The notes under the pieces were generated by a model, which saw nothing but the letters and a program-made list of their open reading frames with translations, was not told the DNA's origin and ran no database searches. DNA of 64,000 nucleotides from an uncultured Flavobacteriaceae bacterium (GTDB lineage: Bacteria > Bacteroidota > Bacteroidia > Flavobacteriales > Flavobacteriaceae): NCBI GenBank assembly GCA_947500585.1, contig CANMSN010000003.1:1-64000 (forward strand), written 5' to 3'. Positions 11,597-47,498 of the stretch are shown one piece after another (within the stretch, counting starts at the first letter, position 1; each line of letters opens with the position of its first letter). Both the position numbers and the translations under genes were made by a program.

Positions 11597-12430
11597 TTAA
11601 TGCTCTAAGAAGTCTATTAAATGCTTTCTGTATTTATAATAATCGTCGTGTTCTAGAACCGCTTTACGTGTTCTTGGTCTTTCAAAATCAATGCTTAAAA
11701 CATCACCGATTTTAGCTTTTGGTCCGCTAGTCATCATAACTACACGGTCTGCTAAAAAGATAGCCTCATCAACGTCATGTGTAATCATTACTGCTGTAAT
11801 TTTCTCTTTATTCCAGATTTCAATAAGAATATCTTGAAGTTCGCCACGTGTTAGAGAATCTAGCATGCCAAAAGGTTCATCAAGCAATAAAACTTTGGGC
11901 TTTATGGCAAAAGCACGAGCAATTCCAACACGTTGCTGCATACCTTGAGATAATTCGGATGCTTTTTTATTAAACGCACCTTCTAATCCTACTTTTTGCA
12001 AATAATGTTTTGCAATATCATTTCGTTGCCCTTTTGTAGCATGCGGAAATACTTGGTTTACACCTAACAATACATTTTGAAGCGATGTCATCCAAGGCAT
12101 TAAACTCGGAGATTGAAAAATAACGCCTCTATCTGGCCCTGGGCCTTTTATATGACTTCCCAAAACTGAAATATTACCACCTGAAATTGGATTTAAACCT
12201 GCTATCATTGAAAGCATAGTGGTTTTACCACAACCAGAGTGCCCAATGATCGTCACGAATTCCTCCTTCATAATCTGAAGATTTAAATCTTCCAATACGA
12301 CGTAATCACCTTTGGGCGTTGGGTATACTTTCTTAAGGTTTTTTAAATCCAACATAACTCTGGACGGTGGAAAAAGCCCATTATCTGTAAGTGTCTCTGA
12401 CTTTTTATTCTCTAATATTGTAGTGCTCAT
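11597..12430 (-). CDS. nrtD: nitrate ABC transporter ATPase, second copy (NrtD-like)
   Basis: ABC ATPase of the nitrate/sulfonate/taurine class. Walker A GHSGCGKTTM near residue 63, signature LSQGMQQRVGIARA near 158, Walker B VLLLDEPFGMLD near 180, and H-loop MITHD near 215. 277 aa with no fused solute-binding domain, unlike cyanobacterial NrtC. Immediately downstream (12-bp gap) of a second ATPase and of nrtB and nrtA, so the transporter probably uses a heterodimeric ATPase. The initial region (1-30) is a family-atypical Ser/Thr/Pro-containing extension. The expected substrate is nitrate or nitrite, judged from the nitrate reduction context. Confidence 0.88.
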   Translation of the reverse strand: MSTTILENKKSETLTDNGLFPPSRVMLDLKNLKKVYPTPKGDYVVLEDLNLQIMKEEFVTIIGHSGCGKTTMLSMIAGLNPISGGNISVLGSHIKGPGPDRGVIFQSPSLMPWMTSLQNVLLGVNQVFPHATKGQRNDIAKHYLQKVGLEGAFNKKASELSQGMQQRVGIARAFAIKPKVLLLDEPFGMLDSLTRGELQDILIEIWNKEKITAVMITHDVDEAIFLADRVVMMTSGPKAKIGDVLSIDFERPRTRKAVLEHDDYYKYRKHLIDFLEH

Positions 12431-12442
12431 AACTTTAGTTTT

Positions 12443-13288
12443 TTAAAAGCGTCCAACAAAACTTTTAGGTGCCAAATCTGGCAATTCGATTAAATCTTGT
12501 GCTTCAGATTTTCTTTCGTCACCTATATCCATCAAATACTCGATAATCGCATTTCTAGTTTTCTTAAAATTTGCATTATCGTTTAATTCTGTTTTATCTC
12601 TTGGGCGTTCAATATCAATTTTAAATTCTGGTCCTAAGGTTGCGTTAGGTCCTGGACGAAGCGGAATAATTCGATCTGCCATATATATACCTTCATCAAC
12701 ATCATTAGTAATTAATAACGCTGTACGCTTATCTTTTCCCCAAATATTTAGAATTTCATCTTGTAGATTACCACGAGTTAAGGCGTCTAAAGCTCCAAGA
12801 GGCTCATCCATAATAATCATCTCTGGCTTCATAGCTAATGCTCTAGCAACTGCAACACGCTGACGCATCCCACCTGATAATTCTTTTGGGCGTTTATTAA
12901 TTGCGGGGGTTAAACTCACCATCTCTACATAATCTGCAACGATTTCGTTCAATTCTTTTTTAGATTTCTTTGGAAAGGCTTCTTTAACAGCCATATACAC
13001 ATTTTGCCCTACAGTTAACCATGGCAACAATGAATAATTCTGAAAAATCACACCACGTTCATGACTAGTGCCTTCAACTGGTTCACCTTTAAACAAAACT
13101 TCACCTTTAGTTGGTTCTAACAAGCCATTAATTAAGTTTACTAAGGTTGTTTTTCCACTTCCTGTAAATCCAACAATAGCAACAAAATCACCTTCTTCAA
13201 TTGATAAATTAATATTAGAAAGTACTTCGGTAGCATTGTCACCTTGTCCGTAAGTCTTATAAATGTTATTTAATTCTAAATAGGCCAT
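12443..13288 (-). CDS. nrtC: nitrate ABC transporter ATPase, first copy (NrtC-like)
   Basis: ABC ATPase paralogous to the next gene. Walker [11 protein letters not shown] near residue 42, signature [14 protein letters not shown] near 138, Walker [13 protein letters not shown] near 160. The H-loop reads LITND, where the usual His is Asn, so this subunit may be catalytically impaired and work asymmetrically with the other ATPase, whose H-loop is normal (MITHD). 281 aa, ATPase domain only. It follows nrtB by 107 bp, a spacer made of short AT-rich repeats. Confidence 0.87.
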
Positions 13289-13395
13289 TTCAAAAATGTT
13301 TATTCGTTTATCTGTTTAATTGTTTATGCTCACTCATTCGTTTAACCAGTATTTACGATTACACGACTAAACAAATAAACAACTCAACATATTCA

Positions 13396-14505
13396 TTATA
13401 TCGCATCCGTTTTATCAAAAGACACCCAGTTTTGTATTGCTAGCATCAGTCGATCTAACAAAAATCCTATGATTCCAATAACAAACATGGCAACAATTAT
13501 TTTTGCGTTTGAATCGTTCGCTCCATTTTGGAATTCTTCCCAAACAAATAACCCTAAACCTGGGCTTTGTGCTAATAATTCAATAGCTATTAAAACCATC
13601 CACGCTACAGATAAGGTGATTTTCAACCCTGTAAATATTAGCGGTAAAGACGATGGTAATACTACTTTGAATATCTTTTGAAAATTTCCAAGCTTTAATA
13701 CTTTGGCTACATTGATATAATCTTTATCTACCGATGATACGCCCATAGCCGTATTCACCAAAGTTGCCCACATAGAACATAAGCCTACACTGATAAACGA
13801 TATAGTAAAAGAACTATCTTCGTTAGAATCTATCAATACTGTTTTTACAATCATAAAAACTAATAAGTACCAAACTACTGGAGATACTGGTTTAAAAATT
13901 TGAATAAACCAATTAAAAGCACTTTTCAATGTCGGACTTAATCCGATAAATATTCCTAATGGTACTGCAATGACTAAGGCTAATAAAAACCCTGCAAATA
14001 CTGTCTTTAAACTTCTAAATATTTGATCTACGAACGATGGTCTTCCCGTATAGGTAATAGGATCTTTTCCTTCTGCTAATCGCTTTTCATTTAAAGCTGC
14101 TGTTTTTTCTATAAAAGCGGCTTTGTCTGCACTAATTATATTGTGGTCTCTCAATAAAGATTGATACGATTCCCATACTTGAGCAGGAGACGGCAATGTA
14201 TTTGGCTGACAGCTAGAATCTTCGCCCAGAGCGATACAAGCAGCAACAGCATCTGCTGCTACTTGACCTTGCTCTTCTAAAGCTTTATTAATTCTAAACT
14301 CTGCTTCTATGTTGTACAAAGTCTTAGAACCCATGTGCCATAAACCAATAAATAATAAAATGGAAGCAATAGGCACAACTATTTTGCGCAGGAAGCTTAT
14401 AAAATCTTCCTTTTCTAGTTTTCCAGTAAATAAATCTTTAATTGTTCCTAAAAATCCTAAGCCCATAAACTTTGTTACTTTTCCTAATGTTACACTTTGC
14501 TTCAT
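13396..14505 (-). CDS. nrtB: nitrate ABC transporter permease with periplasmic insert
   Basis: BPD-type inner-membrane permease. A hydrophobic helix near residues 40-60 is followed by a hydrophilic, helical-looking stretch of roughly 100 residues (about 65-165) containing two Cys about 9 residues apart, then the usual five-helix core with an EAA-like loop near residue 265. Total 369 aa is longer than typical NrtB (about 270-280). The insert lies between the first and second helices and would be periplasmic, where it could contact the NrtA lipoprotein. Starts 28 bp downstream of nrtA. Confidence 0.88.
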   Translation of the reverse strand: MKQSVTLGKVTKFMGLGFLGTIKDLFTGKLEKEDFISFLRKIVVPIASILLFIGLWHMGSKTLYNIEAEFRINKALEEQGQVAADAVAACIALGEDSSCQPNTLPSPAQVWESYQSLLRDHNIISADKAAFIEKTAALNEKRLAEGKDPITYTGRPSFVDQIFRSLKTVFAGFLLALVIAVPLGIFIGLSPTLKSAFNWFIQIFKPVSPVVWYLLVFMIVKTVLIDSNEDSSFTISFISVGLCSMWATLVNTAMGVSSVDKDYINVAKVLKLGNFQKIFKVVLPSSLPLIFTGLKITLSVAWMVLIAIELLAQSPGLGLFVWEEFQNGANDSNAKIIVAMFVIGIIGFLLDRLMLAIQNWVSFDKTDAI

Positions 14506-14533
14506 GATGCTTTTTATTAAGTTACTTTGCTAA

Positions 14534-15928
14534 TTATTGTACAGCTGTATCTTTATTACCAATTTTAAAGCTATTGATATAAGAAATAGGATCTTTAGCA
14601 TCATAAGTTGTGCCGTCAATAAAATCAGATGTTGCTGGTTTATACCCGTCTGTTGTTGGAATATCTCCAGCTGGAATGTTTCCTTCTTCTACTAAAAGTT
14701 TAGCCGCTTTTGTCCAGATATCTGGTCTGTATATTTCCTTAATAGTTTCACCATACCATGCTGCTGCCTTAGCTTCAGGAATTTGTCCCCAACGTCTCAT
14801 TTGCGTTAAAAACCAAATACCATCTGAATAGAAAGGATATGTTGCATTGTACTTATAGAATACATTAAAGTCTGGCATATCACGTTTATCACCTTTTTCA
14901 AATTCAAACGTACCTGTCATAGAGTTTGCTAATACTTCTTCTGGAGCACCAACATATTGAGACATTGCTAATATTTTAACTGCTTCTGCTCTATTGCTTG
15001 GTTCATCTAACCATTTACCTGCTCTAATTAAAGCTTTTGTTACTGCAACTGCTGTATTAGGATAGTCTTCAACAAATTTCTTTGTCATTACAAATACTTT
15101 CTCTGGGTTATTTTTCCAGATATCATAGTTGGTAGTAACTGGGACACCTATGCCTTTAAATACAGCTTGCTGATTCCATGGTTCACCAACACAGTATCCA
15201 TAAATAGTACCTGCTTCAAGTGTAGCTGGCATTTGTGGCGGAGGTGTAACTGATAATAAAACTTCAGCATCAATTTGTCCTTGAACGTTATCTGCTGTAT
15301 ACATACCTGGGTGAATGCCTGCTGCAGCTAACCAATATCTTATTTCGTAGTTATGTGTAGATACTGGGAATACCATGCCCATTTTAAAAGGCTTACCAGA
15401 GTTTTTGTATTCTGTAATTACAGGTTTAAGCGCATCAGCTTTTATAGGGTGAATTGGCTTTCCATCAGCACCTTTAGGTACGTTTGGTTTCATTTTAGAC
15501 CAAACATCGTTTGATACTGTGATTCCATTACCATTTAAATCCATTGAAAATGGCGTTACTAATTCAGCTTGACGACCAAAACCTGCACCTGCAGCAATTG
15601 GCTGTCCCGCTAGCATGTGCGAACCATCTAATTGACCATCAATTACACGGTCTAATACGTTTTTCCAGTTTGATTGTGCTTCAACAGAAACGAATAAGCC
15701 TTCATCTTCAAAGAATCCTTTTTCTTTAGCTATTGCTAAAGGCGCCATATCTGTTAATTTGATGAAACCAAAAGTTAATTGTGGTTTTTCAATATCTAAT
15801 GTCTTTGTTTTTGAAGTTTCATCAACCACTTCTGCTGTTGATTCTTTCTTTTTATCTCCACCACCGCATGAGAAGAGCAATACGCTAAGCGAAAAAATCC
15901 AAGTTGTTTTTGTTAGTAAAGTTTTCAT
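14534..15928 (-). CDS. nrtA: nitrate-binding lipoprotein (NrtA-like)
   Basis: Solute-binding component of the nitrate/nitrite transporter. N-terminal lipoprotein signal ending LLFSC with lipidation at C21, then a GGGDKKKES linker and the CmpA/NrtA-type bilobed domain, including [22 protein letters not shown] at the start of the mature fold (positions near 50-70). 464 aa is normal. First gene of the uptake operon; a perfect 16-bp palindrome lies 23 bp upstream of its ATG, identical to the one before the globin gene, so it is likely part of the nitrate regulon. Bicarbonate (CmpA) or taurine binding are alternatives; the genomic context favours nitrate. Confidence 0.9.
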
Positions 15929-15950: not shown

Positions 15951-15966
15951 TAAGTATTAATACTTA
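15951..15966. promoter_or_regulatory. nitrate-regulon palindrome at nrtA
   Basis: TAAGTATTAATACTTA, a perfect 16-bp palindrome ending 23 bp before the nrtA ATG. A minus-strand TATATTTG (15975-15982), matching the Bacteroidota TAnnTTTG element, lies 8 nt further upstream. The same palindrome with the same 8-nt offset is found before the globin gene. An incomplete relative, TACGTATTAATAAAGA, is at 16137-16152. Confidence 0.8.
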
Positions 15967-16179: not shown

Positions 16180-16887
16180 TTATTTATCTAATTGCTCTAA
16201 CCAAGCTTCCATTGATAAGCCAATGTATTTTTTATCATTACCATAAGGGTCTTCACCGCCTTTAAAGTATTCTGAAATAACTTTCATAGGAATTGTATCT
16301 TCCAATTTGGTGGCAACTTCATATTTATGGTTTCCATGAAAATCATGGCACTGTATACACGTAAACCATTCTTCTTTAGCTATTAACGTTTTATGGTCTA
16401 TATCTAAAGGATCATTTTCAACCTCCAAATCTTGATGACAATTCATACAGTAATCTATAGAAGCTACGGTTACACGTTCTTCATGATGCTCTGAATGACA
16501 TGTAATACATGTTGTTGCATCTATATTCTTAATAGCATCTTTAAAGCGCGGTTCTGAAAAACGGTGATTCGGGTGTCTGTCATTAGGACGATCATGACAT
16601 TGCAAACAATTATCAACTGTAACATCGCTAGTACCAAAGTCAACTCCATCTTCTCTAGCTCCAAAAGCATGTGCAGTATTTGATTGTATTTGCTGCATCA
16701 AATTACCCTTAGCATCGGCATGACAAGCCATACATTTTAGATCATTGTGTCCTGTATTCATTGGTCCGAGCGATATATAATCTTCAGACGCATCTAAAGT
16801 AAGAATGAAAAATAACGATACGCCTACTACTAAGCCTATAATAATTCCAAAAAACTGTCTTTTTCTTAACGGACTTACTTTAAACAT
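16180..16887 (-). CDS. membrane-anchored pentaheme cytochrome c
   Basis: 235 aa with one N-terminal helix (about residues 10-31) and a periplasmic domain holding five CXXCH motifs: C52-H56, C94-H98, C127-H131, C147-H151, C177-H181. Extra His residues (for example near 105-108 and 134-135) could be distal ligands. It resembles NapC/NrfH- or cytochrome c3-like carriers in size and topology, but I cannot assign a named family. It ends the globin-to-cytochrome gene run and lies 10 bp downstream of a flavin reductase gene. A role as periplasmic electron acceptor or donor is inferred from that arrangement. Confidence 0.85.
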   Translation of the reverse strand: MFKVSPLRKRQFFGIIIGLVVGVSLFFILTLDASEDYISLGPMNTGHNDLKCMACHADAKGNLMQQIQSNTAHAFGAREDGVDFGTSDVTVDNCLQCHDRPNDRHPNHRFSEPRFKDAIKNIDATTCITCHSEHHEERVTVASIDYCMNCHQDLEVENDPLDIDHKTLIAKEEWFTCIQCHDFHGNHKYEVATKLEDTIPMKVISEYFKGGEDPYGNDKKYIGLSMEAWLEQLDK

Positions 16888-16897
16888 ATAAATTACA

Positions 16898-17923
16898 TTA
16901 TAATTCTATAACTACAGATTCACTGACTGGATAACTTACACAAGTTAAAATTTCGCCATTATTTACAGCTTCTTCATCTAAAAAATGACCTTCTATCATT
17001 TTAATTTCGCCCGATACACATCGTGCTTTACAAGTAGAACACATACCTGACCTACAAGAATAGGGCAATACGATATTATCTGACATCGCTTGACGTAGTA
17101 TGGAAACATCGCCTCTAACTTTAATTTCATGAGAACTTCCGTTCACATTTAAGGTAACGTTACTAATTAAATCTTTACCTGTTAATTTAACCTGAGGTGC
17201 TTTAAATACTTCTATTTTTATTTTATCTCTGGTAACGTTATTATTTTTTAGAAGCTCTTTTACCTTTTCCATATAACCAAAAGGGCCACATATCATATAA
17301 ACATTATTTTCAAAATTCAAATGATGTTTAGAAAAAATAGTGTTCAAAAGCGTTTCTGAAATTAATCCTGAATGGTAATTTTCTTGCTCAACCTTACCTG
17401 ATGACAAAATATGTTCTACAGAAAAATTATTTGGGTATTTTTCAACTAATGCTTTTATGGCTTCATGAAAAATAATAGAATCAGGACTTTGATTTGCATA
17501 AATGAGCAATATTTTAGATTGGGTTTCAGTATTTAAAATAGACTGAATAATAGAGTATATTGGTGTTACACCACTACCTCCAGCAAAAAAAACATACTGG
17601 TTTTGCGCCGTTTTGGTAAGATCTAAATAAAATGATCCTGCTGGTTTATCAACTTCTAATTTATCGCCAATTTTTATAAAATCATGAACGTAATTTGAAA
17701 CTAACCCTTTATCTACACGTTTTACGGTAATTTTTAAATCTTTATCTGTAGTTGTGCTACTAAACGAATAGGCTCTTTTGTGAACAACACCTTCAATCGG
17801 GACATGTATCGTTAAAAATTGCCCAGGTTTGTATGATAGTTTGTTAAACAAATTACCATTTGTAAAAGCTAAAGTAACCGCATCATCAGTTTCTTTAATT
17901 ATATCCTTTATTTTTAACTTCAT
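16898..17923 (-). CDS. NAD(P)H reductase with FAD and plant-type 2Fe-2S domain
   Basis: Flavodoxin-reductase-like (PaaE/Hmp-reductase type) cytosolic enzyme: FAD domain about 1-100 with RAYSFSS near residues 50-56, NAD domain about 105-230 with FFAGGSGVTPIYSII, and a C-terminal 2Fe-2S ferredoxin domain with C290, C295, C298 and C328 (C-x4-C-x2-C-x29-C). 341 aa. Upstream by 21 bp is a small membrane protein with ferric-reductase-like heme histidines; downstream is a pentaheme cytochrome. It may deliver NADH electrons to that membrane protein, or reduce the nearby globin, giving a split flavohemoglobin. Confidence 0.88.
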   Translation of the reverse strand: MKLKIKDIIKETDDAVTLAFTNGNLFNKLSYKPGQFLTIHVPIEGVVHKRAYSFSSTTTDKDLKITVKRVDKGLVSNYVHDFIKIGDKLEVDKPAGSFYLDLTKTAQNQYVFFAGGSGVTPIYSIIQSILNTETQSKILLIYANQSPDSIIFHEAIKALVEKYPNNFSVEHILSSGKVEQENYHSGLISETLLNTIFSKHHLNFENNVYMICGPFGYMEKVKELLKNNNVTRDKIKIEVFKAPQVKLTGKDLISNVTLNVNGSSHEIKVRGDVSILRQAMSDNIVLPYSCRSGMCSTCKARCVSGEIKMIEGHFLDEEAVNNGEILTCVSYPVSESVVIEL

Positions 17924-17944
17924 AAACCAAACTTCTTAATTACC

Positions 17945-18424
17945 TTATTTATAATAGAACACCATACTTATATGAAAGACCATCATGATTGTTATAATTA
18001 GTGATAACGCTACATGAGTAATCATCCATCCTTTAAATAATAATTCACTATTATTTTTAATGACATCTAAATTAAAATAACCTATTAGTGTATTTGTAAA
18101 AAAGATGTATGATAATAACAGCAAGTAGCCATAACCCAATTCCATACTATGAAAATAGAAAAACAGCGGACTTAAAGCACCTATCCATTTATGTATAAGT
18201 GCCATTTTAACCGCATGTTTTCTCATTTTTTTAATAATCCTACTAAATGTTAGAACCCATTGAAATACAATAAGCAAAGCCAAAGCTAAACCAGACCACC
18301 TTTTGTACATTTCATCTAGCTGAAGGTTTTGTAGCCAAACCCAGTGCCAATTAAATATGTACTGTAAAAGATAAAGACATAGTAAAATAAGCCCTAAAAC
18401 TGTAGGGTTCTTAAAATATTTCAT
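17945..18424 (-). CDS. ferric-reductase-like membrane cytochrome b
   Basis: 159-aa protein with about four to five hydrophobic helices (about residues 8-26, 43-61, 80-116 and 131-156). Two His pairs with identical spacing are visible: H78-x13-H92 and H137-x13-H151, the arrangement that binds two b hemes across the membrane in NOX/ferric-reductase/MsrQ proteins. There is no FAD/NAD domain on the same chain; a matching reductase is encoded 21 bp downstream. I therefore read the two as a split transmembrane reductase. Family membership is by motif and topology, not by database search. Confidence 0.65.
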   Translation of the reverse strand: MKYFKNPTVLGLILLCLYLLQYIFNWHWVWLQNLQLDEMYKRWSGLALALLIVFQWVLTFSRIIKKMRKHAVKMALIHKWIGALSPLFFYFHSMELGYGYLLLLSYIFFTNTLIGYFNLDVIKNNSELLFKGWMITHVALSLIITIMMVFHISMVFYYK

Positions 18425-18478
18425 TCAGATAAAATTTAATAAAGAGAAGATTATTGCTCTTAAACTACTAGCAACTGC

Positions 18479-19288
18479 TTAATTTGCAGCTACTAATTTT
18501 TTCATAGTCTCATAAGAGGCTAATTTTCTAACACTATCTAGAAAAACCTCTGCTGTAGGCAAATAGTTCCCATCTGCTGGCCATTTTTCTCCAATTTCTG
18601 GTTTTTCGCTTTCTTTAAAATTATCAATCTCATCTAAATATTCAAGATAGATATCTACAGTACCTTTAGCATAGGAGTTTAAAACGGCTACGGTTTCTTT
18701 ATAAGACAGAGAATCTTTTGGATACTGCCATGTCGTTGCACCCATAACATCTCCTAATTTCCAATCAGATTTTGAAGTTTGCGGATGATCGTTATGACAA
18801 GTTACACAAGCACCTGCGCTTGCAAGATCTGCAAACATTGCGGTATGTAACTTTTGCTCTTCATCATAGAAAAATTTTGGCTCCTGATTTTCTTTTATTT
18901 CTTCAAATAATTCAGCTTGTTGTCCTTCAAACTTATTTGCTGCATTTATAGGAAAATCAGATCCTAAATACAAACCAAGTGGTACAGGGCTCTTTTTAAT
19001 ACTAGTAGCAACTCCTCTTAAAAATAATGCAGGTAATGGACCAGCTTCAACATCATCTTTTCTCCAATCTTCATCAAACTTCATACCCTGCTTTTTACCT
19101 CCACCAACAATGGCTTTAGTATATAATGTTCGTGTTACATCATTCTCTGTAGCAACCATTTCTAAAACTTCAGCTACAGAAAACACATTGTCTGAAGCAG
19201 TAACTTTTTCTTCTGGCACACCTCCACAAGACGTTAATAAGATACCAATAGACGTTAATAATATTGTGATTTTTAATATAGATTTCAT
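18479..19288 (-). CDS. DUF3365 (Tll0287-like) c-type heme lipoprotein
   Basis: Lipoprotein signal with lipidation at C21 (LLTSCGG), then a domain of about 250 residues with a single heme-binding CVTCH (C161-H165) followed by NDHPQTSKSDWKLGDVMGA, typical of DUF3365/Tll0287-like c-type heme sensor domains. Exported, anchored on the periplasmic side or outer membrane. It follows the globin gene by 21 bp and precedes the cytochrome b gene. It could sense redox state or NO, or act as a terminal acceptor of the neighbouring reductase. The role is inference. Confidence 0.82.
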   Translation of the reverse strand: MKSILKITILLTSIGILLTSCGGVPEEKVTASDNVFSVAEVLEMVATENDVTRTLYTKAIVGGGKKQGMKFDEDWRKDDVEAGPLPALFLRGVATSIKKSPVPLGLYLGSDFPINAANKFEGQQAELFEEIKENQEPKFFYDEEQKLHTAMFADLASAGACVTCHNDHPQTSKSDWKLGDVMGATTWQYPKDSLSYKETVAVLNSYAKGTVDIYLEYLDEIDNFKESEKPEIGEKWPADGNYLPTAEVFLDSVRKLASYETMKKLVAAN

Positions 19289-19309
19289 ATTCTGGAATTT
19301 AAAAGATTA

Positions 19310-19726
19310 TTAATAAGACGCTTTTATCATAACACTAGACATCGTTCCGTAAACGCTTGCCCAAGCATCTTTTACTTCTGGAGTAAAATCATCACCCAAA
19401 CCAGCTTCTAAAGTGCCTAATAATGCAGCTCCAACAGTATCGTAATGCGAAGGCTCTACTTTATATTCTACATGCCTTTTTCCAAGACCTTCCAAAACAG
19501 GTATTAAAGCCTCTATATTGCTTAAACCTGCTACTGCAGCTGCCAGCATGGTCATTAATTTATTTCCTTGTTCAACCATGGCTCCCTCTTTATCTGTAGG
19601 GAATAATGGCTTCAATTTTGGGTCTAATTCAAATAATTTAGAATAAAATATTTCAGCTGCGGCGGGAGCTATAGGTTTAACTTTTTCAAATGAATCTTGT
19701 ACGAGAGTAATAGTTTTTTGTTCCAT
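19310..19726 (-). CDS. single-domain globin (Vitreoscilla/Hmp-globin type)
   Basis: 138-aa globin without a reductase domain. The likely B10 tyrosine is Y28 (FYSKLF) and the proximal F8 histidine is H85 (LGKRHVEY), the same pattern as the globin half of flavohemoglobin Hmp. It probably binds O2 and NO and may detoxify NO produced during nitrite reduction, with electrons from the FAD/2Fe-2S reductase encoded three genes downstream. First gene of the redox run. A perfect TAAGTATTAATACTTA palindrome lies 44 bp before its ATG, linking it to the nitrate regulon. Confidence 0.9.
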   Translation of the reverse strand: MEQKTITLVQDSFEKVKPIAPAAAEIFYSKLFELDPKLKPLFPTDKEGAMVEQGNKLMTMLAAAVAGLSNIEALIPVLEGLGKRHVEYKVEPSHYDTVGAALLGTLEAGLGDDFTPEVKDAWASVYGTMSSVMIKASY

Positions 19727-19786: not shown

Positions 19787-19910
19787 CTTAATTACAAAAA
19801 TATATGGACTTCTTTTAATTAAGGATGCGATAAAACAGTAAAAAAAAACTTTTTATATTAGTTAAAAAACTGCTTTTACAACATGTTTTTATGAAATTTT
19901 ATAAAAAAAT

Positions 19911-20660
19911 TTAAGAATCTAAGTAGAAATTATGTTCGTTAATTTCCTTTTTAAGAAGATCGACATCGTTAATTCCAATTTTTTTTCCTCTGGCAGAAAT
20001 AAGGTTTTCTTTTTTTAAAATAGAAAATATTCTAATTACTTGCTCTTCAGTTGTACCTGCATAATCTGCGTACTCTTTTCTACTTAAAGGCAAATTTAAA
20101 AAGCCTTTTAAAGACCCAAACTTTCTATGAATATATAATAAGGTATCTATAACGCGTTCACGAACCGTCATTTGAGAAATAGACTTTACTTTAGATTCAC
20201 TTCTATTAAGCTCATTGGCATAAAAAAGCATTAAATCATAAGTAAATTTTGGATTGGTTAGCAATGTCTGCTGTAAGCTATTCTTTGAAAAGTAGCATAA
20301 TATGGTATCTTCCAAAGCGATGGCTCCTATTGAATAGTATTCTTCAGTTCCAAAACCACGATGCCCAATAATTTCCCCATCCTTAGCGAATCTTACTATT
20401 TGTTCTCTGCCGTTTATTCCTGTTTTAAATACTTTTACCTTTCCTTTTAAAATAAAAAACAAACCATTTACGGGAGCACCTTCCATAATAAATTGCTGAC
20501 CCTTTTTACAAGGAATGGTAGTCTTTTGATTAACTATTTCTGAGTTTTCTAAGGCTTCTAAATTCCTTTTTATTAGGCAAGTAGAGTTAACACATGCATC
20601 GCATGAAGTTGCTAATGCGTGTCTCCTTTTAATAGCATTTGATGTTGTGTAGTTTACCAA
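19911..20660 (-). CDS. FNR-like Crp/Fnr transcription regulator
   Basis: 249-aa cytoplasmic regulator: N-terminal Cys cluster, cyclic-nucleotide-binding fold (about 50-165), C-terminal winged helix (about 170-235). Cysteines C20, C23, C28 and C122 correspond to the 4Fe-4S ligands of E. coli FNR (C20, C23, C29, C122), with the third shifted by one residue, so an O2- or NO-sensitive cluster is likely. The recognition helix TTEEQVIRIF keeps the Glu and Arg of Crp/Fnr proteins but has Ile where FNR has Ser. It is transcribed away from the moeA operon and has two palindromic sites upstream of itself, suggesting autoregulation. It is the best candidate to bind the palindromes described here. Confidence 0.9.
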   Translation of the reverse strand: MVNYTTSNAIKRRHALATSCDACVNSTCLIKRNLEALENSEIVNQKTTIPCKKGQQFIMEGAPVNGLFFILKGKVKVFKTGINGREQIVRFAKDGEIIGHRGFGTEEYYSIGAIALEDTILCYFSKNSLQQTLLTNPKFTYDLMLFYANELNRSESKVKSISQMTVRERVIDTLLYIHRKFGSLKGFLNLPLSRKEYADYAGTTEEQVIRIFSILKKENLISARGKKIGINDVDLLKKEINEHNFYLDS

Positions 20661-20688: not shown

Positions 20689-20704
20689 TACGTATTAATA
20701 CTTA
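20689..20704. promoter_or_regulatory. nitrate-regulon site 1 upstream of the FNR-like gene
   Basis: TACGTATTAATACTTA, one base from the perfect palindrome. Its gene-proximal TA forms the first two bases of a minus-strand TATATTTG (20683-20690), so operator and -7 element overlap by 2 bp, as at nirB and the nitrate reductase gene. Confidence 0.75.
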
Positions 20705-34357: not shown

Positions 34358-35797
34358 TTAATTCTGTTTTAATAAAACCTTCTTTTCAAAGCTACTTTTA
34401 GGTGCTTCACAAAGTGAACATTCGTAAGTTTCTGGTAAATTGTCAAATGTTATTCCTGGAGCTATATCTTGTGTAATATCTCCGTAACTTTCATTATAAA
34501 TAGTTAGGCATTCTATACATTGGTAAACCTCTTCTTCAAAAACTTCTTTGTTCGATTCTAGAGATTTTTCTTCTTCGCGTTCTGTACCTAATTCTTCAAA
34601 ATACAACTGACTCAACTCCATTAACAACCCTGGCAACTCAACCATATCTACATCTTGCACATGCATAATGTATTCGTTTGTATTTGGATCAAAATTTTTA
34701 GCGTACAATAAATTATAAGTATCTCTTATTCTAAAATCACCTATAGCTTCGGGTTGCCTATTCTTCTCTATAACAATAGATGTAAAGTTATAAGTATCAC
34801 TATCATGATTGGTAATCCCGAACGTTAAACCATAAGTACTAATATCATTTTGATCGAAATTTGTTACCAAATATTTTTTTAGGTTAAGAGCTTCTTTATC
34901 ATTTACCGGTAAGTGCCAATTCATTTCTAACATAGAATGACGCACATTTATTCCATATTTTCCTAAAAACTTCTCCCATTGTAGTTTAGAGTTTTGAGGT
35001 ATCCCTTTAACAATAAAGGATTTCCAGGGTGTTATAGAGATTTTACCTATTTTATTTTCTGAACACAAATCGCACATCGCTTTCAGAAATTTTAAATCGT
35101 ATCTATTATTTCGCCAATATAACCCCAACCAATAACGATCTGTACCGATTCTGTTCATACCTTCGTAATACGGAAATGGGTAAAACGGAACTTCAAGAGG
35201 TTTATCTACCGTTCTATTATTTGTATCTACAGCATCACTTACTAAATCGAAAACCGTTTCAATAGTTTCGGGTTCTTCTTGTAAAATACTTTCAATGGCC
35301 AACTCAATCTTATCCATATCCCAACTATAAATGAGTGCAGGATACATTTGTGTTTTTTTCCAACCTGGTAATCTAAGGTATAAATACCAGTAATCTTCAT
35401 GATCTGAGGCTATAAAATTAACATTTCCAGTAAATAACGGCACCAAACGCTGTTTAGGATCTATAACATTGATACGTAATTTTGGGTTATGCTTAAATTG
35501 CTCTAGAACATACAAATAACGGTCGCTGGTAAGCCATGAGGTACTAGTTAAAATTTCAGCAGAAACATAGGACGATGCAATATTCTCAACTTTATCTTTT
35601 TTAGGTTGAACAAATTTGATTTTATCAAATTGGCTAAATTTAGTAGCATCAATTTCCTCAGGGAAAATAATATCTTGACGCGAACCAAAAGATATGGCAT
35701 CTAAACCCAAACCTTCGGCCGCTTCACAAATATATTTTAACTCACCTGGTGATAAAACACCACCGTTAATCATGAGTCTATATGGTTCTTTAATCAT
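34358..35797 (-). CDS. SiR/NiR-like protein lacking siroheme motif, with rubredoxin tail
   Basis: 479 aa. The N-terminal 400 residues resemble the ferredoxin-like half-domains of siroheme sulfite/nitrite reductases (LMINGGVLSPGELKYICEAAEGLG; GKISITPWKSFIVKGI near residue 250), but the C-x5-C/C-x3-C siroheme-4Fe4S motif is missing. The C-terminus is a rubredoxin domain with C427, C430, C460 and C463. Its ATG overlaps the stop of the nitrate reductase gene, so it is made with that enzyme and probably passes electrons to it or partners it. I know of no characterised protein with this exact layout. Confidence 0.75.
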   Translation of the reverse strand: MIKEPYRLMINGGVLSPGELKYICEAAEGLGLDAISFGSRQDIIFPEEIDATKFSQFDKIKFVQPKKDKVENIASSYVSAEILTSTSWLTSDRYLYVLEQFKHNPKLRINVIDPKQRLVPLFTGNVNFIASDHEDYWYLYLRLPGWKKTQMYPALIYSWDMDKIELAIESILQEEPETIETVFDLVSDAVDTNNRTVDKPLEVPFYPFPYYEGMNRIGTDRYWLGLYWRNNRYDLKFLKAMCDLCSENKIGKISITPWKSFIVKGIPQNSKLQWEKFLGKYGINVRHSMLEMNWHLPVNDKEALNLKKYLVTNFDQNDISTYGLTFGITNHDSDTYNFTSIVIEKNRQPEAIGDFRIRDTYNLLYAKNFDPNTNEYIMHVQDVDMVELPGLLMELSQLYFEELGTEREEEKSLESNKEVFEEEVYQCIECLTIYNESYGDITQDIAPGITFDNLPETYECSLCEAPKSSFEKKVLLKQN

Positions 35798-38700
35798 ACT
35801 AAAACTTTTGAATTTTGAAGTATTTCTCTAACCTCAGATTTACAACTTCCACAACCTAAACCTGCACCTGTAGTGTTACATAACTGTGTGAAATCGGTAC
35901 ACCCTTTTGCAATAGCGTCTTCAATATTACCCGCTCCTACTTGACTGCATGAACAAACGAGCTTTCCTAAAACAGGCACATCGTTTGATGAACCTCGGAG
36001 TAACTTATCACGCTTATCTGCCATTTCAATTTTACTTTCAATCATGGTTTTAAATTCGGCGAACTCATTTTTATCGCCCATTAAAACCGCACCAACGAGT
36101 AAGTCGTCCTTAACAATACACTTTTTATAATAGCGTTTTTTAATGTCGGTAAAAATTATTTCTTCATAACTTTCGTCATTTTCTGGCACATTAATATCGC
36201 CAATACTACATAAACTTAAATCGTTAAATTTTAAAATATTCATTAAAACGGAACCATTATACGAACTACTAATATCACCAGCTATAAAATTAGCTAGAAT
36301 AGTAGCCTGCTCTTCTGCTGCAGAAGTAATTCCGAATAATTGATTGTTATATTCAGCTATTTCACCAATAGCAAAAATGTCTGGATGTGACGATTGTAAA
36401 TGCTGATTCACCTTAACGCCTCTAGTACAACTTATACCATTTTCCCTTGCTATCTCTACATTGGGAATGGTTCCAATAGCGTACACAATAGCATTGGCTG
36501 TTATGAGTTTCCCACTTTTAAGCGTGATGTTTAAATCTCCCGTATCTTCATCATCAAACACTGTACTTACTTCATTATCAAAATAAATTTGAATCCCTCG
36601 TTCTTGAACATCCAAAGCTAATAACTTACTAGAAACTATATCTAATTGACGCTCCATTAAACGAGAACCACGCTGAATAATCGTGATTTTAGCATTTTTG
36701 TGCTTCATCGCCGCAGCTAATTCCAACCCAAGTAATCCGCCACCAACAATAACGACATGCTGTTCTTCTGGAGGTAAACCTGTTGCATCTAAGTAGGTTT
36801 TAAATTTATCGGCATCGCTTTTATTACGCATGGTAAAACGTCCCGGTAAATCTATTTGAACATCATTTGGAATAAAAGCGCGACTGCCTGTTGCCAGTAT
36901 TAATTTATCAAAGCTGTGGGCTTCTCCATTATTATCTGTAACCGATTTATTGTCTTTATCAACTTTAGAAATATAGGTTTCGGGATGCAAATGAACATTG
37001 AGTTTATTAAGCTCTTTGTTCTTTATTTTTAAAAGTTGTTCCCATGTTAATTCTTCGGTAACATATTCTGGTAACAAGACTCTGTTATAAAACAAATTAG
37101 GTTCTTTTGAAAACACATGAATTTCATCCGTTTCATTTTGTTCTCTGTAATTTTGTATAAATCTAAATGCTGCAGCACCTGCACCGGCTACTATTATTTT
37201 TTCAACTGCTTTTTTATATTTTGAAACTGAAACACGCGTGAACTTAAAATCTGGTTCTTTTGATACAGGATCTATGTGCGTATTGGTTAAATTATTAACT
37301 CTGTTTAAGTTACTTTGCATTTGTTTACCCCAATGCATTGGCATAAACACTACACCTTTTTTTATAGTATCTGTAACTTTAGCACGCATTCTTACCAATC
37401 CATTTTCACCCTTAATTTCTGTAATGTCGCCGTTTTTAATTTTATATAAAAAGGCATCTACAGGATTAATTTCTAAAACAGGTGTTGGATAATGCGTTTT
37501 TAACCTTGATACCTTTCCTGTTTTTGTCATGGTATGCCATTGATCACGCACACGACCTGTTGTTAAAATTAATGGAAACTCATTATTGGGTTGTACAGAT
37601 GTGTTGGCTATAGACGTTGGTAAATTAAATTGTGCTTTCTGTGTTGGCGTATAAAACTTTTTATCCTCAAATAACCTTGGCGTCCCTTCATGCCTGTGTT
37701 CTGGAACTGGCCATTGAAAAGTGCCTTCGGTTTTTAATCTATCGTAATTTAAATATGAGACATCAATATTAGTGCCTTTAGTCATTAATGCGTATTCATC
37801 ATAAATTTCGCTTGCATTACTATAATTAAAGCCTCTAAAGCCCATACGTTGTGCAAAATCGCAGAATATTTCAACATCTGGTCTGGCTTCTCCAGGAGCT
37901 TCAATTTCTTTGGGTAAATATGAAATGCGCCTTTCAGAATTCGTCATCGTACCTTCTTTCTCTAACCATGCTGCTGCAGGTAGTACCAAATCTGCAAAAG
38001 CTACGGTATCCGATTTATGAGAAATCTCTTGAACCACCACAAACTTTGCATTTTTCATGGCTTTTTCAATACGGTTCAAATTTGGCAGACTTACTAATGG
38101 ATTTGTACAAGCTATCCAAACCGCTTTCATTTTGCCACTTTCCATAGCATCAAACATTTCGGTAGCTGTCAATCCTGGTTTTGGATTGATCTTATCAACA
38201 CCCCAAAACTGAGCCACTTCCTGACGATGTTTCTCATTCATTAAATCTTTATGAACCGCCAATAAATTTGCCATTCCTCCTACTTCTCGTCCGCCCATAG
38301 CATTTGGCTGACCTGTTAATGAAAAAGGACCTGCTCCAGGTTTTCCAACCTGACCCGTAATTAATGATAAATTTAAAAGCGATACATTTTTATCGGTGCC
38401 TACCATACTTTGGTTTAAGCCCATCGCCCACATACTTATAAATCCTTTTGAAAGCCCAATAATATCTGCTGCTTTCTGAATGTCTTTTTCTGGAACACCA
38501 CATAATTTTGACGCTTGTTTTAAAGATGTTTTAAAGATTAAGTCTTTGTATTCCTTAAAGCCTTCAGTATGATTATTTATAAAATATTCGTCAATCAACC
38601 CGCGTTTATACAAGCATCTACCAATAGCATTGTATAAAATAACATCAGTTCCAGGGAGGAGTTGTAAATGTAAATCTGCAAAATTAGCTGAGTCTGTTTT

Positions 38701-39315
38701 ACGAGGATCTACAACAATAATTTTTACATTGGGATTATCTTCTTTGCGTTTTTCAATACGTCTAAACAAAATAGGATGACACCACGCAGGATTTGCGCCT
38801 GTAATTAAAAAAGTATCTGCCAATTCAATATCGGCATAAGAAATTGGCACACTATCTTCTCCAAAAGTTTTTTTATAACCAACAACCGCTGAACTCATAC
38901 ACAAACGTGAGTTGGTATCAATGTTATTGGTACCTAAAAAGCCTTTAGTTAGTTTATTCGCTATATAATATTCTTCTGTTAAACTTTGTCCAGACACGTA
39001 AAACCCAACACTATCTGGTCCGTGTTTTTTTATAATTGATTTAAAAACGCTTGCTGCTCTATCTAAGGCATCGTCCCAACTTACGCGCTCGCGAGGATGA
39101 GAACGACTCCAACGCATTTCTGGGTAAAGAATCCTATCTGAAGTATCATTAGCTACGTAATGCAGATTCATGCCTTTAGAACACAACATGCCTTTATTTA
39201 CAGGATGATCTTTATCGCCTTCAACCAGCACCTTGTTATTACTGTCTTTTTTTACAATAATACCACAGCCTACACCACAATAGGAACATGTTGTTTTTAC
39301 TTCATTCTTAATCAT
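35794..39315 (-). CDS. nasA: assimilatory nitrate reductase fused to flavin reductase and BFD domain
   Basis: 1173 aa. The N-terminal 4Fe-4S motif has C10, C13, C17 and C45; the bis-MGD molybdenum domain runs to about 690, with a putative Mo ligand in NSRLCMSSAVVGYKK. Then an FAD/NAD(P) pyridine-nucleotide oxidoreductase domain of the NirB/NasB type (about 705-1110; IIVAGAGAAAFRF, VVIVGGGLLGLELAAA), and a C-terminal BFD 2Fe-2S domain (CSCSQVGAGN, GCGSCKSEV). It thus combines NasA and NasB in one chain. Transcribed leftward with the rubredoxin-tailed gene. An operator of the nitrate type lies about 175 bp upstream of the ATG. Confidence 0.92.
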   Translation of the reverse strand: MIKNEVKTTCSYCGVGCGIIVKKDSNNKVLVEGDKDHPVNKGMLCSKGMNLHYVANDTSDRILYPEMRWSRSHPRERVSWDDALDRAASVFKSIIKKHGPDSVGFYVSGQSLTEEYYIANKLTKGFLGTNNIDTNSRLCMSSAVVGYKKTFGEDSVPISYADIELADTFLITGANPAWCHPILFRRIEKRKEDNPNVKIIVVDPRKTDSANFADLHLQLLPGTDVILYNAIGRCLYKRGLIDEYFINNHTEGFKEYKDLIFKTSLKQASKLCGVPEKDIQKAADIIGLSKGFISMWAMGLNQSMVGTDKNVSLLNLSLITGQVGKPGAGPFSLTGQPNAMGGREVGGMANLLAVHKDLMNEKHRQEVAQFWGVDKINPKPGLTATEMFDAMESGKMKAVWIACTNPLVSLPNLNRIEKAMKNAKFVVVQEISHKSDTVAFADLVLPAAAWLEKEGTMTNSERRISYLPKEIEAPGEARPDVEIFCDFAQRMGFRGFNYSNASEIYDEYALMTKGTNIDVSYLNYDRLKTEGTFQWPVPEHRHEGTPRLFEDKKFYTPTQKAQFNLPTSIANTSVQPNNEFPLILTTGRVRDQWHTMTKTGKVSRLKTHYPTPVLEINPVDAFLYKIKNGDITEIKGENGLVRMRAKVTDTIKKGVVFMPMHWGKQMQSNLNRVNNLTNTHIDPVSKEPDFKFTRVSVSKYKKAVEKIIVAGAGAAAFRFIQNYREQNETDEIHVFSKEPNLFYNRVLLPEYVTEELTWEQLLKIKNKELNKLNVHLHPETYISKVDKDNKSVTDNNGEAHSFDKLILATGSRAFIPNDVQIDLPGRFTMRNKSDADKFKTYLDATGLPPEEQHVVIVGGGLLGLELAAAMKHKNAKITIIQRGSRLMERQLDIVSSKLLALDVQERGIQIYFDNEVSTVFDDEDTGDLNITLKSGKLITANAIVYAIGTIPNVEIARENGISCTRGVKVNQHLQSSHPDIFAIGEIAEYNNQLFGITSAAEEQATILANFIAGDISSSYNGSVLMNILKFNDLSLCSIGDINVPENDESYEEIIFTDIKKRYYKKCIVKDDLLVGAVLMGDKNEFAEFKTMIESKIEMADKRDKLLRGSSNDVPVLGKLVCSCSQVGAGNIEDAIAKGCTDFTQLCNTTGAGLGCGSCKSEVREILQNSKVLV

Positions 39316-39628: not shown

Positions 39629-40819
39629 ATGAATTTTAGAAACAAAGTAATAAAACTGATATTTTATATTAATATGGTATTGGTTTGCCTGATTTCTTGT
39701 AGAAATTCGGATTCTAAACCCAAAAACGATTATAAAAGCTTTATAAATATTAAGATTGATACTTTGGCTAATCGATATCTTCAGTTGAATAGATTTAGCG
39801 GTACAATTTTAGTAAATAAAGGAGATTCTTTAATTTATAGTAATCATTTTGGTCTAGCAGATTATGAAAACAACCTGCCATTTACAAACGCAACTTCTTT
39901 CAAAATAGGAGGACTATCCAAGCTATTTACTGCCAAAATAATTCAAAAATTAATAAGTGAGAATAAATTAAAACTGGAAGATTCCCTATCAAAATATCTT
40001 CCGACAACGAAAACTTATAAGACCATAGAAGATTTAATTAATACTGATTCATTAAACATAAATTCTAATTATAACTTTTTAGGAGAGCTAATTGAAAAAA
40101 TAAGCGGAGAAAGCTTTCAAACTAATATTGACAATTATTCAAAGCAAATTGGTTTAAATAACACCTATTACAAAAATGATAATAAGAATTTAGCAATCGG
40201 TTACCTTTTTAGTAATTACAGAGGAAAAGGAAATGAGTTACACATGTCGCCATCTTACAATTTACAAGAAGCTTTTAGTAGTTTTGGTATAAAATCTAAT
40301 GCTAAAGATATATTAAAGATTATCGATTATGACAAATCTATTGATATTCATGGCTACATAGAAAATGATGGTTTTAGCTATTCTGTTGTAAATAATCCTC
40401 AAACTGAAATATCTATTATTGTCCTGAGCAACCGCAGACATCCAGTAACTAAAGAAATTTCTAATGCGATAAATTCAATTATAGAAGAAAAAGAATACAG
40501 ACTACCGCTATTAAGAAAACCATTTAAAATAAACACAAGTCTACTTAAAAACTATTCGGGAACTTATATTATAAATGAAAATATAAGCTTCGACGTTGTG
40601 ACTGAAAATGACAGCCTCTTTGTTTTGATGGGAGAAAATAAAATCAATCTAATTCCACAAAGCTCAAATCAATTCTACATGACACAATCTGATGCAGCAA
40701 TGCGATTCATAAAAGATTCGACTGGCATAGTCTCCGAAGTTATTCTTTTGGATGGCTTTTTGGATGGGAATTCAGTAAAAAGAGTATCTAATAGTTCTAA
40801 ATCAACTGAAACTCCTTAG
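39629..40819 (+). CDS. beta-lactamase-like lipoprotein without catalytic residues
   Basis: 396 aa with a lipoprotein signal ending LISC (C24). The body is a class C beta-lactamase/serine hydrolase fold (FSGTILVNKGDSLIYSNHFGLADYE; FKIGGLSKLFTA; NFLGELIEKISGES). In active members the SxxK motif reads GSxSK; here it is GGLSK (residue 95 is Gly in place of the nucleophilic Ser), and the YxN tyrosine appears as Asn. It is therefore probably a binding or scaffold protein, not a hydrolase. Its 3' end overlaps the narL-like gene by 23 bp on the opposite strand. No link to nitrate metabolism is obvious. Confidence 0.8.
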   Translation: MNFRNKVIKLIFYINMVLVCLISCRNSDSKPKNDYKSFINIKIDTLANRYLQLNRFSGTILVNKGDSLIYSNHFGLADYENNLPFTNATSFKIGGLSKLFTAKIIQKLISENKLKLEDSLSKYLPTTKTYKTIEDLINTDSLNINSNYNFLGELIEKISGESFQTNIDNYSKQIGLNNTYYKNDNKNLAIGYLFSNYRGKGNELHMSPSYNLQEAFSSFGIKSNAKDILKIIDYDKSIDIHGYIENDGFSYSVVNNPQTEISIIVLSNRRHPVTKEISNAINSIIEEKEYRLPLLRKPFKINTSLLKNYSGTYIINENISFDVVTENDSLFVLMGENKINLIPQSSNQFYMTQSDAAMRFIKDSTGIVSEVILLDGFLDGNSVKRVSNSSKSTETP

Positions 40820-41456
40820 CCTTATTGCTAAGTTCCATTAAGTTCTTAACTTCAAGTTTTTTCATTAAATTAAAACGGTGTACTTCAGCAGTACGCTTGC
40901 TAATTTGAAGTTCATCAGCAATATCTTTATTATTCTTAAGCTGTAAGACCAAATTAAGTATTTGTTTTTCGCGTTTAGTTAAGTTAAACGGATCTTCTTT
41001 TAATATTTGCTCAGGCTTAGTTGCTGTATTGGTATTTCCATTCACAAAATTATTCATTATGATAGCAGAAACATCACCTGAAAAATATTTACCTCCAGTA
41101 GCCACTTTATTTATCGCCTTTAAAAACTCTTCTTTACTAGCTCCTTTTAACAAATAACCGTCTGCTCCAGCCTGAATAGCTTGTACAACATATTCTTCAG
41201 AATCATGCATCGACAAAACAAGTGTTTTTATATTTGGGTAAGACTTACTCATTTCCGAAACAACCTCAATACCATTCATTTCTGGCATTCTAATATCAAC
41301 AATCAATACATCGGGATTGCTTCTTTCAACAACAATTAAGGCTTCCTTCCCGTTAGAGGCTTCATCAATCACCGTAATACCACTTTGGTCTTCTAATAAG
41401 GCTTTTATACCGTCTCTAACCAAAACATGGTCGTCTGCTAAAGCTACATTGATCAT
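40797..41456 (-). CDS. narL: NarL/LuxR-type response regulator
   Basis: 219 aa: receiver domain (phospho-acceptor D54; acidic D8, D9; IVDIRMPEMNG) and a C-terminal LuxR-type HTH (about 150-215; LTKREKQILNLVLQLKNNKDIADEL). It pairs naturally with the NarX-like kinase encoded about 660 bp upstream. One nitrate-type operator lies 46 bp before its ATG, within the end of the RidA-like gene, suggesting its own regulated promoter. By position in the nitrate cluster it probably controls nitrate or nitrite genes. Symbol given by analogy only. Confidence 0.88.
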   Translation of the reverse strand: MINVALADDHVLVRDGIKALLEDQSGITVIDEASNGKEALIVVERSNPDVLIVDIRMPEMNGIEVVSEMSKSYPNIKTLVLSMHDSEEYVVQAIQAGADGYLLKGASKEEFLKAINKVATGGKYFSGDVSAIIMNNFVNGNTNTATKPEQILKEDPFNLTKREKQILNLVLQLKNNKDIADELQISKRTAEVHRFNLMKKLEVKNLMELSNKAKEFQLI

Positions 41457-41502
41457 ATCTATCTATGAATTTTAAGTATTATGTATCAAAAATAATAATT
41501 TT

Positions 41503-41518
41503 TAAGTAATACTACGTA
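41503..41518. promoter_or_regulatory. nitrate-regulon operator upstream of the narL-like gene
   Basis: TAAGTAATACTACGTA, an exact match in the reverse orientation. A minus-strand TATTTTTG (41487-41494), matching TAnnTTTG, is separated from it by 8 nt, i.e. exactly 10 bp further than at nirB and the nitrate reductase. It overlaps the last codons of the RidA-like gene. Confidence 0.7.
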
Positions 41519-41901
41519 TTTTTCGATTTTAGTGCAGTAACTTGAATTTCTATTTTCATTTTTTCATCTGCAAGTCCTGCTGAAAACATAGTTGCTGCAG
41601 GTTTAATGTCTCCAAAGTACTTTTTTAATACTGGCCAACATTTTTCGAAAAGGCTTACATCTGGTAAAATATAAGTAACTCTTACTATATCTGATAATTT
41701 AGCATCTGCCTTTTCAAGTGTGTTTTTTATATTGACTAAACATTGTTCAGTTTGCTCAACGATATCATCACTAATAGTCATTGTATTGTAATCGTAACCT
41801 GTAGTTCCTGATACAAACACCCAATTATCTTGTACAACTGCTCTTGAATATCCTATATTTTCTTCAAAACTTGAACCTGAACTTATTAGTTTTCTTTTCA
41901 T
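41512..41901 (-). CDS. RidA/YjgF-family protein lacking the catalytic arginine
   Basis: 129 aa, complete RidA fold. Family segments SGTTGYDYNTMTISDDIVEQTEQCLVNIKNTL and VRVTYILPD are present. In RidA enamine/imine deaminases an Arg precedes the final beta-strands; here the corresponding stretch is IKPAATMFSAGLADEKMKIEIQ, without that Arg, so classical deaminase activity is doubtful. It lies between the two-component genes, on the same strand, after a 218-bp repeat-rich gap. Confidence 0.85.
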   Translation of the reverse strand: MKRKLISSGSSFEENIGYSRAVVQDNWVFVSGTTGYDYNTMTISDDIVEQTEQCLVNIKNTLEKADAKLSDIVRVTYILPDVSLFEKCWPVLKKYFGDIKPAATMFSAGLADEKMKIEIQVTALKSKNT

Positions 41902-42025
41902 TATCGTAATTATAATACTTGTTAGGTAGAGCGCAGTCGAAACCTGTTTTTTTAATAGCTAATATCGCAAAACCTTTCGACAGCAATCTAGGGGGACAAA
42001 AATAAAGAATTTTGATTCCCGTTTT

Positions 42026-42060
42026 CACTTCGACTTCACTTCGACTTCGCTCAGTGACCG
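42026..42060. repeat. dispersed repeat CACTTCGACT...GCTCAGTG
   Basis: Two tandem copies of CACTTCGACT (42026-42035 and 42038-42047) run into TCGCTCAGTGACC. A related element is found at 56961-57007 at the start of the adenine deaminase gene. The rest of the gap between the kinase and RidA genes (41902-42119) holds no gene that I can see. Confidence 0.65.
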
Positions 42061-42119
42061 CTCGAAAATCATAGCTTCAAAAGTAACTACGAGGTAAAAC
42101 CTCGAGGAATTCTTTTCGA

Positions 42120-47482: not shown

Positions 47483-47498
47483 TAAGTAAAAATACTTA
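47483..47498. promoter_or_regulatory. nitrate-regulon operator at nirB
   Basis: TAAGTAAAAATACTTA with perfect outer arms. Its gene-proximal TA is shared with a minus-strand TAGTTTTG (47477-47484), matching TAnnTTTG. Additional TACGTA half-sites are nearby at 47464-47469 and 47527-47532. Confidence 0.78.

Follow-up and report, generated by a model that had tools for sequence, protein, structure and literature searches.

A five-gene operon beside nitrate uptake genes

The window analysed here is a stretch of 64,000 nucleotides (positions 1 to 64,000, forward strand) of contig CANMSN010000003.1, from an uncultured Flavobacteriaceae bacterium (assembly GCA_947500585.1). Positions 16180-19726 contain a cassette of five minus-strand open reading frames (ORFs), transcribed in the order globin, DUF3365 lipoprotein, membrane protein, reductase and pentaheme cytochrome c. 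An FNR-like regulator gene lies on one side of the cassette and a nitrate transporter on the other. A first-pass annotation had described five co-directional genes beside nitrate uptake genes, and both the ORFs, each lying where it had been placed, and the Pfam matches agree with that description.

16180-16887, minus strand: pentaheme c-type cytochrome, 235 amino acids (aa), by multiheme Pfam matches
16898-17923, minus strand: reductase with FAD, NAD(P)H and plant-type 2Fe-2S domains, 341 aa, by Pfam FAD_binding_6, NAD_binding_1 and Fer2
17945-18424, minus strand: membrane protein with five transmembrane (TM) segments, predicted diheme b-type, 159 aa, by invariant His and an AlphaFold2 (AF2) model
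18479-19288, minus strand: DUF3365/Tll0287 (sCache_heme) lipoprotein, 269 aa, by PF11845 above the gathering cut-off
19310-19726, minus strand: single-domain globin, 138 aa, first gene of the operon, by PF00042

The window's membrane protein has no Pfam match. Its AF2 model (predicted local distance difference test, pLDDT, 88) contains five TM helices, and the positive-inside charge pattern places the N-terminus and the 2-3 loop, with 6 Lys/Arg, on the cytoplasmic side. Two H-x13-H motifs, H78/H92 and H137/H151, had been pointed out before, with their conservation named as a check, and these His are invariant in 38/38 distinct homologs. H78 and H137 are predicted to be the ligands of an inner heme, and H92 and H151 those of an outer one. 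Among 42 members of the family, 41 match Ferric_reduct weakly (PF01794; best E 4e-5, 24.1 bits, gathering cut-off 28 bits). A VIA-align comparison of the model with SpNOX gave Z 7.9 over 115 residues at 21% identity, residues 34-159 lying on 26-150. In SpNOX the inner heme is held by H69/H129 and the outer by H82/H142 (PMC11031084); H78/H137 and H92/H151 are offset from these by 8 to 10, so that the pairs line up as closely as the reported range allows. The fold match alone is not decisive, because it is middling (NOX5 gave Z 7.1) and similar scores are reached by cytochrome b561, by cytochrome b of bc1 and by designed bundles. Foldseek returned no match to the model at E<=0.001, and neither the membrane nor the pentaheme profile matched any PDB sequence. 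NOX proteins are defined by six TM helices, bis-His pairs spaced H-x12-14-H in TM3 and TM5, and a C-terminal fused FAD/NADPH dehydrogenase (PMC5676040). The cassette protein has the His pairs, but the model and the charge pattern give five helices, and the reductase is a separate ORF, fused in one genome to the pentaheme protein instead. By that definition it is not a NOX, for all its resemblance to the ferric-reductase/NOX core. The earlier label "NOX-like" goes no further than a likeness of the heme core, given the Ferric_reduct scores below cut-off, the non-unique SpNOX match, the helix count and the separate dehydrogenase.

The reductase has no TM segment, its cluster cysteines (C290, C295, C298 and C328) are invariant, and it would be the cytoplasmic entry point for electrons. 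Among NCBIfam models it comes closest to PaaE, at 254 bits (cut-off 420.8), and to Hcr, at 172 bits (cut-off 383), and falls short of both. The pentaheme protein has an N-terminal TM anchor at about residues 13-31, followed by five CXXCH motifs, which together with six further His are invariant in 36/36 homologs. These residues would suffice for bis-His ligation of all five hemes. Because every heme could be bis-His, the protein suits a wire rather than an enzyme, and it probably forms the outer part of that wire. Its AF2 model reaches a pLDDT of only 50. It scores 31 bits against the ten-heme DmsE-type model (TIGR03508, cut-off 192 bits) and has half the number of CXXCH motifs.

The lipoprotein matches Tll0287-like PF11845, formerly DUF3365, at 4.4e-8 (34.1 bits, cut-off 24.1). 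It has a lipobox Cys21 and a single CXXCH at 161-165, invariant in 38/38 homologs. Only the lipobox Cys and the two CXXCH Cys are conserved in those homologs, and since no other Cys is conserved, the protein lacks the axial Cys ligand that marks the stand-alone redox class of sCache_heme proteins. A search of the PDB with the DUF3365 profile gave only a match to ToxS, which we dismissed as chance.

The globin matches PF00042 at 4.6e-19, and the solved structures nearest to it are single-domain globin-like proteins and Vitreoscilla hemoglobin. Alignment identifies Tyr28, Gln53 and His85, which we take to be B10, E7 and F8, the Tyr/Gln/His set of flavohemoglobins. Hmp is one chain with an NCBIfam cut-off of 432 bits; here globin and reductase are separate ORFs that score 79 and 139 bits. 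Elsewhere in the window's own genome (contig C6, L125:6157-6609), outside any nitrate cluster, lies the gene for another globin of this family, about 60% identical.

Conservation and the tie to nitrate assimilation

Whether the five genes stay together had been named as a check on the original proposal, and they do. A search of genome contigs found the order kept in 20/20 named loci, from Tamlana, Seonamhaeicola, Flavivirga, Algibacter, Aestuariivivens, Aquimarina, Flavobacterium and uncultured Flavobacteriaceae. In a family sample of 299 Flavobacteriaceae genomes, the membrane protein occurs in 23, and the DUF3365 profile finds the same 23. Globin, DUF3365, membrane and reductase genes follow one another in 22 of these carriers. 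In a phylum-wide sample of 395 genomes the only true member came from the window's own genome, the other matches being weak and C-terminal. In three loci of other Bacteroidota (L056:4724-8788, L027 and L029), a TM protein of 320-330 aa with two H-x13-H motifs and a similar C-terminus is flanked by a cyclic nucleotide (cNMP)/4Fe-4S protein on one side and multiheme c proteins on the other, with an FAD/FHA protein nearby. This is the same design built from different parts.

The exception among the 23 carriers, G629, holds a fused variant. By hydropathy and CXXCH positions, reductase, TM helix and five-heme domain form one ORF of 571 aa (L055:9214-10929), with the DUF3365 and membrane genes downstream. 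The G629 genome has no globin of the cassette family, and the operon lies far from nitrate genes, although NrtA is present. The fusion sets a four-part conduit core apart from the globin. It also suggests a polarity, with the reductase inside and the c-hemes outside. The globin family is found in the other 22 carriers, and as a single-domain protein in only 2/30 of the NrtA genomes without the cassette, both times inside the nitrate cluster. In two loci, L122 (genome G614) and L126:8300-8773 (genome G583), it stands without the cassette in nitrate clusters, between an FNR-like gene and NrtA or before nitrate reductase. The globin, absent in G629, is dispensable for the core and stands alone in some nitrate clusters, so it counts as a companion of the wire and not as one of its components.

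All 23 cassette genomes fall among the 53 of the 299 that carry NrtA (P=4.4e-20 if genomes were independent, which they are not). On the NrtA tree the distribution of the cassette needs 15 changes, of which at least 7 are forced by well-supported branches, and carriers and non-carriers are near neighbors. The cassette therefore comes and goes as a unit, only within nitrate assimilators. In many cassette-free genomes the FNR-like gene stands directly before NrtA; in most carriers the cassette lies between the two. A NirA-rubredoxin protein is matched in all 53 NrtA genomes, so the choice of nitrite reductase does not separate the carriers. In the window, positions 34358-39315 encode a 1173-aa nitrate reductase fused to a pyridine-nucleotide/rubredoxin-reductase module and a BFD domain, followed by a 479-aa siroheme reductase fused to rubredoxin. 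Relatives of the latter occur in all 53 genomes, although the window also has NirBD.

The sites and genes that flank the cassette are as follows.

19795-19802, minus strand: probable -7 promoter box TATTTTTG (consensus TAnnTTTG) of the five-gene operon, by consensus and position (PMC9723704)
19771-19786, no strand: palindromic operator TAAGTATTAATACTTA before the globin gene, 8 nt 3' of the TAnnTTTG box, exact match
20689-20704, no strand: operator copy before the FNR-like gene, 1 mismatch, by match and conservation
15951-15966, no strand: exact operator copy before NrtA, just 3' of a TAnnTTTG box
47483-47498, no strand: weaker operator copy before nirB, 2 mismatches
19911-20660, minus strand: FNR/CRP-type regulator with an N-terminal CxxCx4C motif, adjoining the operon, a candidate regulator
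11597-15928, minus strand: NrtABCD ABC transporter, nitrate assigned by gene context

The Nrt ORFs lie, in the order NrtABCD, at 14534-15928, 13396-14505, 12443-13288 and 11597-12430, and their assignment to nitrate follows from the NasA, NirBD and NarX/NarL-like pair in the gene context.

An operator common to the cassette and nirB had been proposed, and it is borne out: the palindrome is exact before globin and NrtA, weaker before the FNR-like gene and nirB, and conserved in relatives. With one mismatch or fewer, TAAGTA-N4-TACTTA occurs upstream of globin in 31/40 cases (0/40 in shuffles), of NrtA in 43/52 and of the FNR-like gene in 33/47, against 0-1 in shuffled sequences overall. With up to two mismatches it is found in 11/11 NirB upstreams. 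No copy precedes the four inner cassette genes or NrtBCD. In most globin and NrtA upstreams the palindrome begins 7-10 nt after the TAnnTTTG box. Because that box spans -12 to -5 in flavobacteria (PMC9723704), the palindrome covers the first transcribed bases, a position over the probable transcription start that suggests repression. Candidate binders are the adjacent FNR-like protein, whose CxxCx4C motif is present in 48/48 full-length homologs, and the NarX/NarL-like pair at 40797-43934. This pair, inside the nitrate cluster, consists of a response regulator of the LuxR type and a histidine kinase whose sensor domain is PilJ (NarX/NarQ-like); in some relatives the regulator gene has a palindrome of the TACGTA type in front of it. 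We considered a canonical NarL 7-2-7 site for the operator but set it aside, as the half-sites point the other way. A second recurring stretch, TAAAAGA...CAT, lies tens of nt 5' of the promoter box at many globin and NrtA loci and is perhaps an activator site. Together with the co-occurrence with NrtA, the common operator upholds the nitrate tie that the first-pass annotation had drawn.

A proposed route for electrons and its rivals

We propose that electrons enter from NAD(P)H at the FAD of the cytoplasmic reductase, whose 2Fe-2S center would hand them singly to the inner heme b (H78/H137) of the five-TM protein. The outer heme b (H92/H151) would receive them next, followed by the anchored pentaheme protein with its five bis-His c-hemes; the last stop would be the c-heme of the DUF3365 lipoprotein or another periplasmic acceptor. 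The conduit would serve as an accessory of assimilatory nitrate reduction, and its most likely job would be control of nitric oxide (NO) and related nitrogen oxides arising from nitrate and nitrite reduction. The globin would clear NO in the cytoplasm, and the DUF3365 heme may bind or reduce it in the periplasm. What the analysis shows directly is the gene set with its cofactor motifs, the conserved His and synteny, the fusion, the co-occurrence and the operator; the direction of electron flow, heme occupancy, the terminal acceptor and the NO role we infer. The conduit from NADH to periplasmic hemes proposed earlier is backed in part: the reductase-TM-pentaheme fusion argues for a transmembrane conduit, and the order of carriers is read from the order of the domains. 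A part in the handling of O2, NO or nitrite is putative. That the cassette is a transmembrane electron conduit we regard as probable. A role in NO control falls slightly short of an even chance in our judgment, and the complete reading, an NADH-driven diheme-b/pentaheme-c conduit that is a nitrate-assimilation accessory and controls NO, seems to us evenly balanced.

The NO part is drawn from several observations. A DUF3365 domain without axial Cys binds NO tightly, as found for one signalling-type protein (PMC12889525), and a globin and flavoprotein of Bradyrhizobium detoxify NO (PMC4724949). The globin nearly always accompanies the cassette, full flavohemoglobin above the cut-off is almost absent (2/53 NrtA genomes), and there is no link to Cu-nitrite reductase (4/23 carriers against 4/30 other NrtA genomes). 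On the last count denitrification was rejected as the NO source, leaving assimilation as the likely one. Several points weigh against the proposal. None of the cassette genes encodes an enzyme domain of known periplasmic activity. Ferric_reduct, the Pfam family that most membrane-protein members resemble, stays below its cut-off. As many as 30/53 NrtA genomes do without the cassette, Cu-nitrite reductase is not associated with it, and stand-alone DUF3365 proteins have been proposed for redox rather than NO roles (PMC12889525).

The last of these points fits an unlikely alternative, in which an MsrQ/Fre- or ferric-reductase-like device supplies periplasmic electrons for repair, or for reducing Fe(III) so that the nitrate-assimilation enzymes get the iron they need, and NO plays no special part. 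The membrane protein is Ferric_reduct-like, and MsrQ with Fre is a two-protein analogue that feeds periplasmic MsrP (PMC5676040). However, the cassette has no MsrP-like or metal-binding partner, and neither the globin in 22/23 genomes nor co-regulation with nitrate genes would be explained. The globin is central if the operon is instead a split flavohemoglobin, with the reductase mainly serving the globin as a cytoplasmic NO dioxygenase and the membrane and c-heme proteins forming a side branch. Globin and reductase each resemble one half of Hmp, full Hmp is scarce, and Bradyrhizobium Bjgb/Flp offers a precedent (PMC4724949). We nevertheless think this decidedly unlikely: G629 keeps the reductase, tethered to the membrane by fusion, with pentaheme, DUF3365 and membrane genes but no family globin; L122 and L126 have the globin without the reductase; and the reductase has a 2Fe-2S domain absent from Hmp and scores higher to PaaE and Hcr.

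NO binding by a signalling-type DUF3365 domain that, like the cassette lipoprotein, lacks axial Cys (PMC12889525) would also fit a periplasmic NO/redox sensor set by the conduit, which reports the nitrosative state and does not remove NO. This is improbable, as the lipoprotein stands alone without a TM or output domain, no kinase is encoded in the cassette, and five-heme wiring is unusual for a sensor. We give very little credence to flow in other directions, whether inward, with periplasmic or quinol-derived electrons used for nitrate or nitrite reduction, or to O2 in a NOX-like formation of superoxide. The resemblance to the SpNOX core and the reduction of O2 by NOX-type proteins (PMC5676040) speak for this reading, but the pentaheme protein would pull electrons away from O2, and inward feeding is unnecessary where assimilatory NasA carries a fused pyridine-nucleotide reductase module and NirB likewise has its own. 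In a bolder form of our own proposal, the cassette would be a new type of nitrogen-oxide reductase, spanning the membrane and powered by NADH. Its diheme core, split and ferric-reductase-like, would pass electrons through the pentaheme protein to the sCache_heme lipoprotein, acting as a periplasmic NO (or nitrite) reductase that protects nitrate-assimilating flavobacteria from their own by-product. We consider this doubtful.

If the conduit proposal is right, a widespread marine group sends NADH electrons directly to periplasmic hemes without passing through quinones, and nitrate assimilation, commonly regarded as cytoplasmic, becomes linked to redox and NO chemistry in the periplasm. The orphan heme domain DUF3365 also gains a conserved set of operon partners with which its function can be tested.

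Comparison with known systems

The first-pass annotation knew of no described system with this gene set, and we likewise found no description in the open-access papers searched. The parts each resemble something known (MsrQ/Fre, SpNOX, sCache_heme, Bjgb/Flp); the combination, the fusion and the nitrate tie were not found described. MsrQ (YedZ) and the flavin reductase Fre feed periplasmic MsrP (PMC5676040), and the cassette shares with them a ferric-reductase-type membrane heme protein, a separate cytoplasmic flavin reductase and a periplasmic acceptor. It differs in the added 2Fe-2S domain of its reductase, in its acceptors, an anchored pentaheme protein and a c-heme lipoprotein, and in belonging to nitrate assimilation without MsrP. 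The narK-bjgb-flp-nasC operon of Bradyrhizobium, whose globin and flavoprotein detoxify NO (PMC4724949), likewise places a single-domain globin and an FAD/NAD reductase in a nitrate-assimilation cluster, but lacks counterparts of the membrane diheme protein, the pentaheme cytochrome and the DUF3365 protein. Growth on nitrate requires Flp there (PMC4724949), whereas most flavobacterial NrtA genomes (30/53) lack the cassette.

The lipoprotein is a member of the sCache_heme/Tll0287 family (PMC12889525), with PF11845 above the cut-off and an invariant CXXCH. It is set apart by its lipid anchor, by having no axial Cys as the stand-alone redox class does, and by being locked into an electron-transfer operon, a context not described in the main text of that paper. 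As wiring, the pentaheme protein recalls the anchored or periplasmic multiheme c proteins NapC/NrfH, DmsE/MtrA and ExtN/ExtO. It is weakly similar to the DmsE and ExtN/O models, scoring far under the curated cut-offs, and its electrons would be expected from NADH via heme b, not from quinol. Like SpNOX, the membrane protein would hold two hemes by His pairs of TM3 and TM5, and on the model these line up with those of SpNOX. It differs in having five TM segments, no fused dehydrogenase and multiheme acceptor proteins in its operon, and the cassette would offer a compact, naturally occurring model of the heme core that NOX proteins and ferric reductases have.

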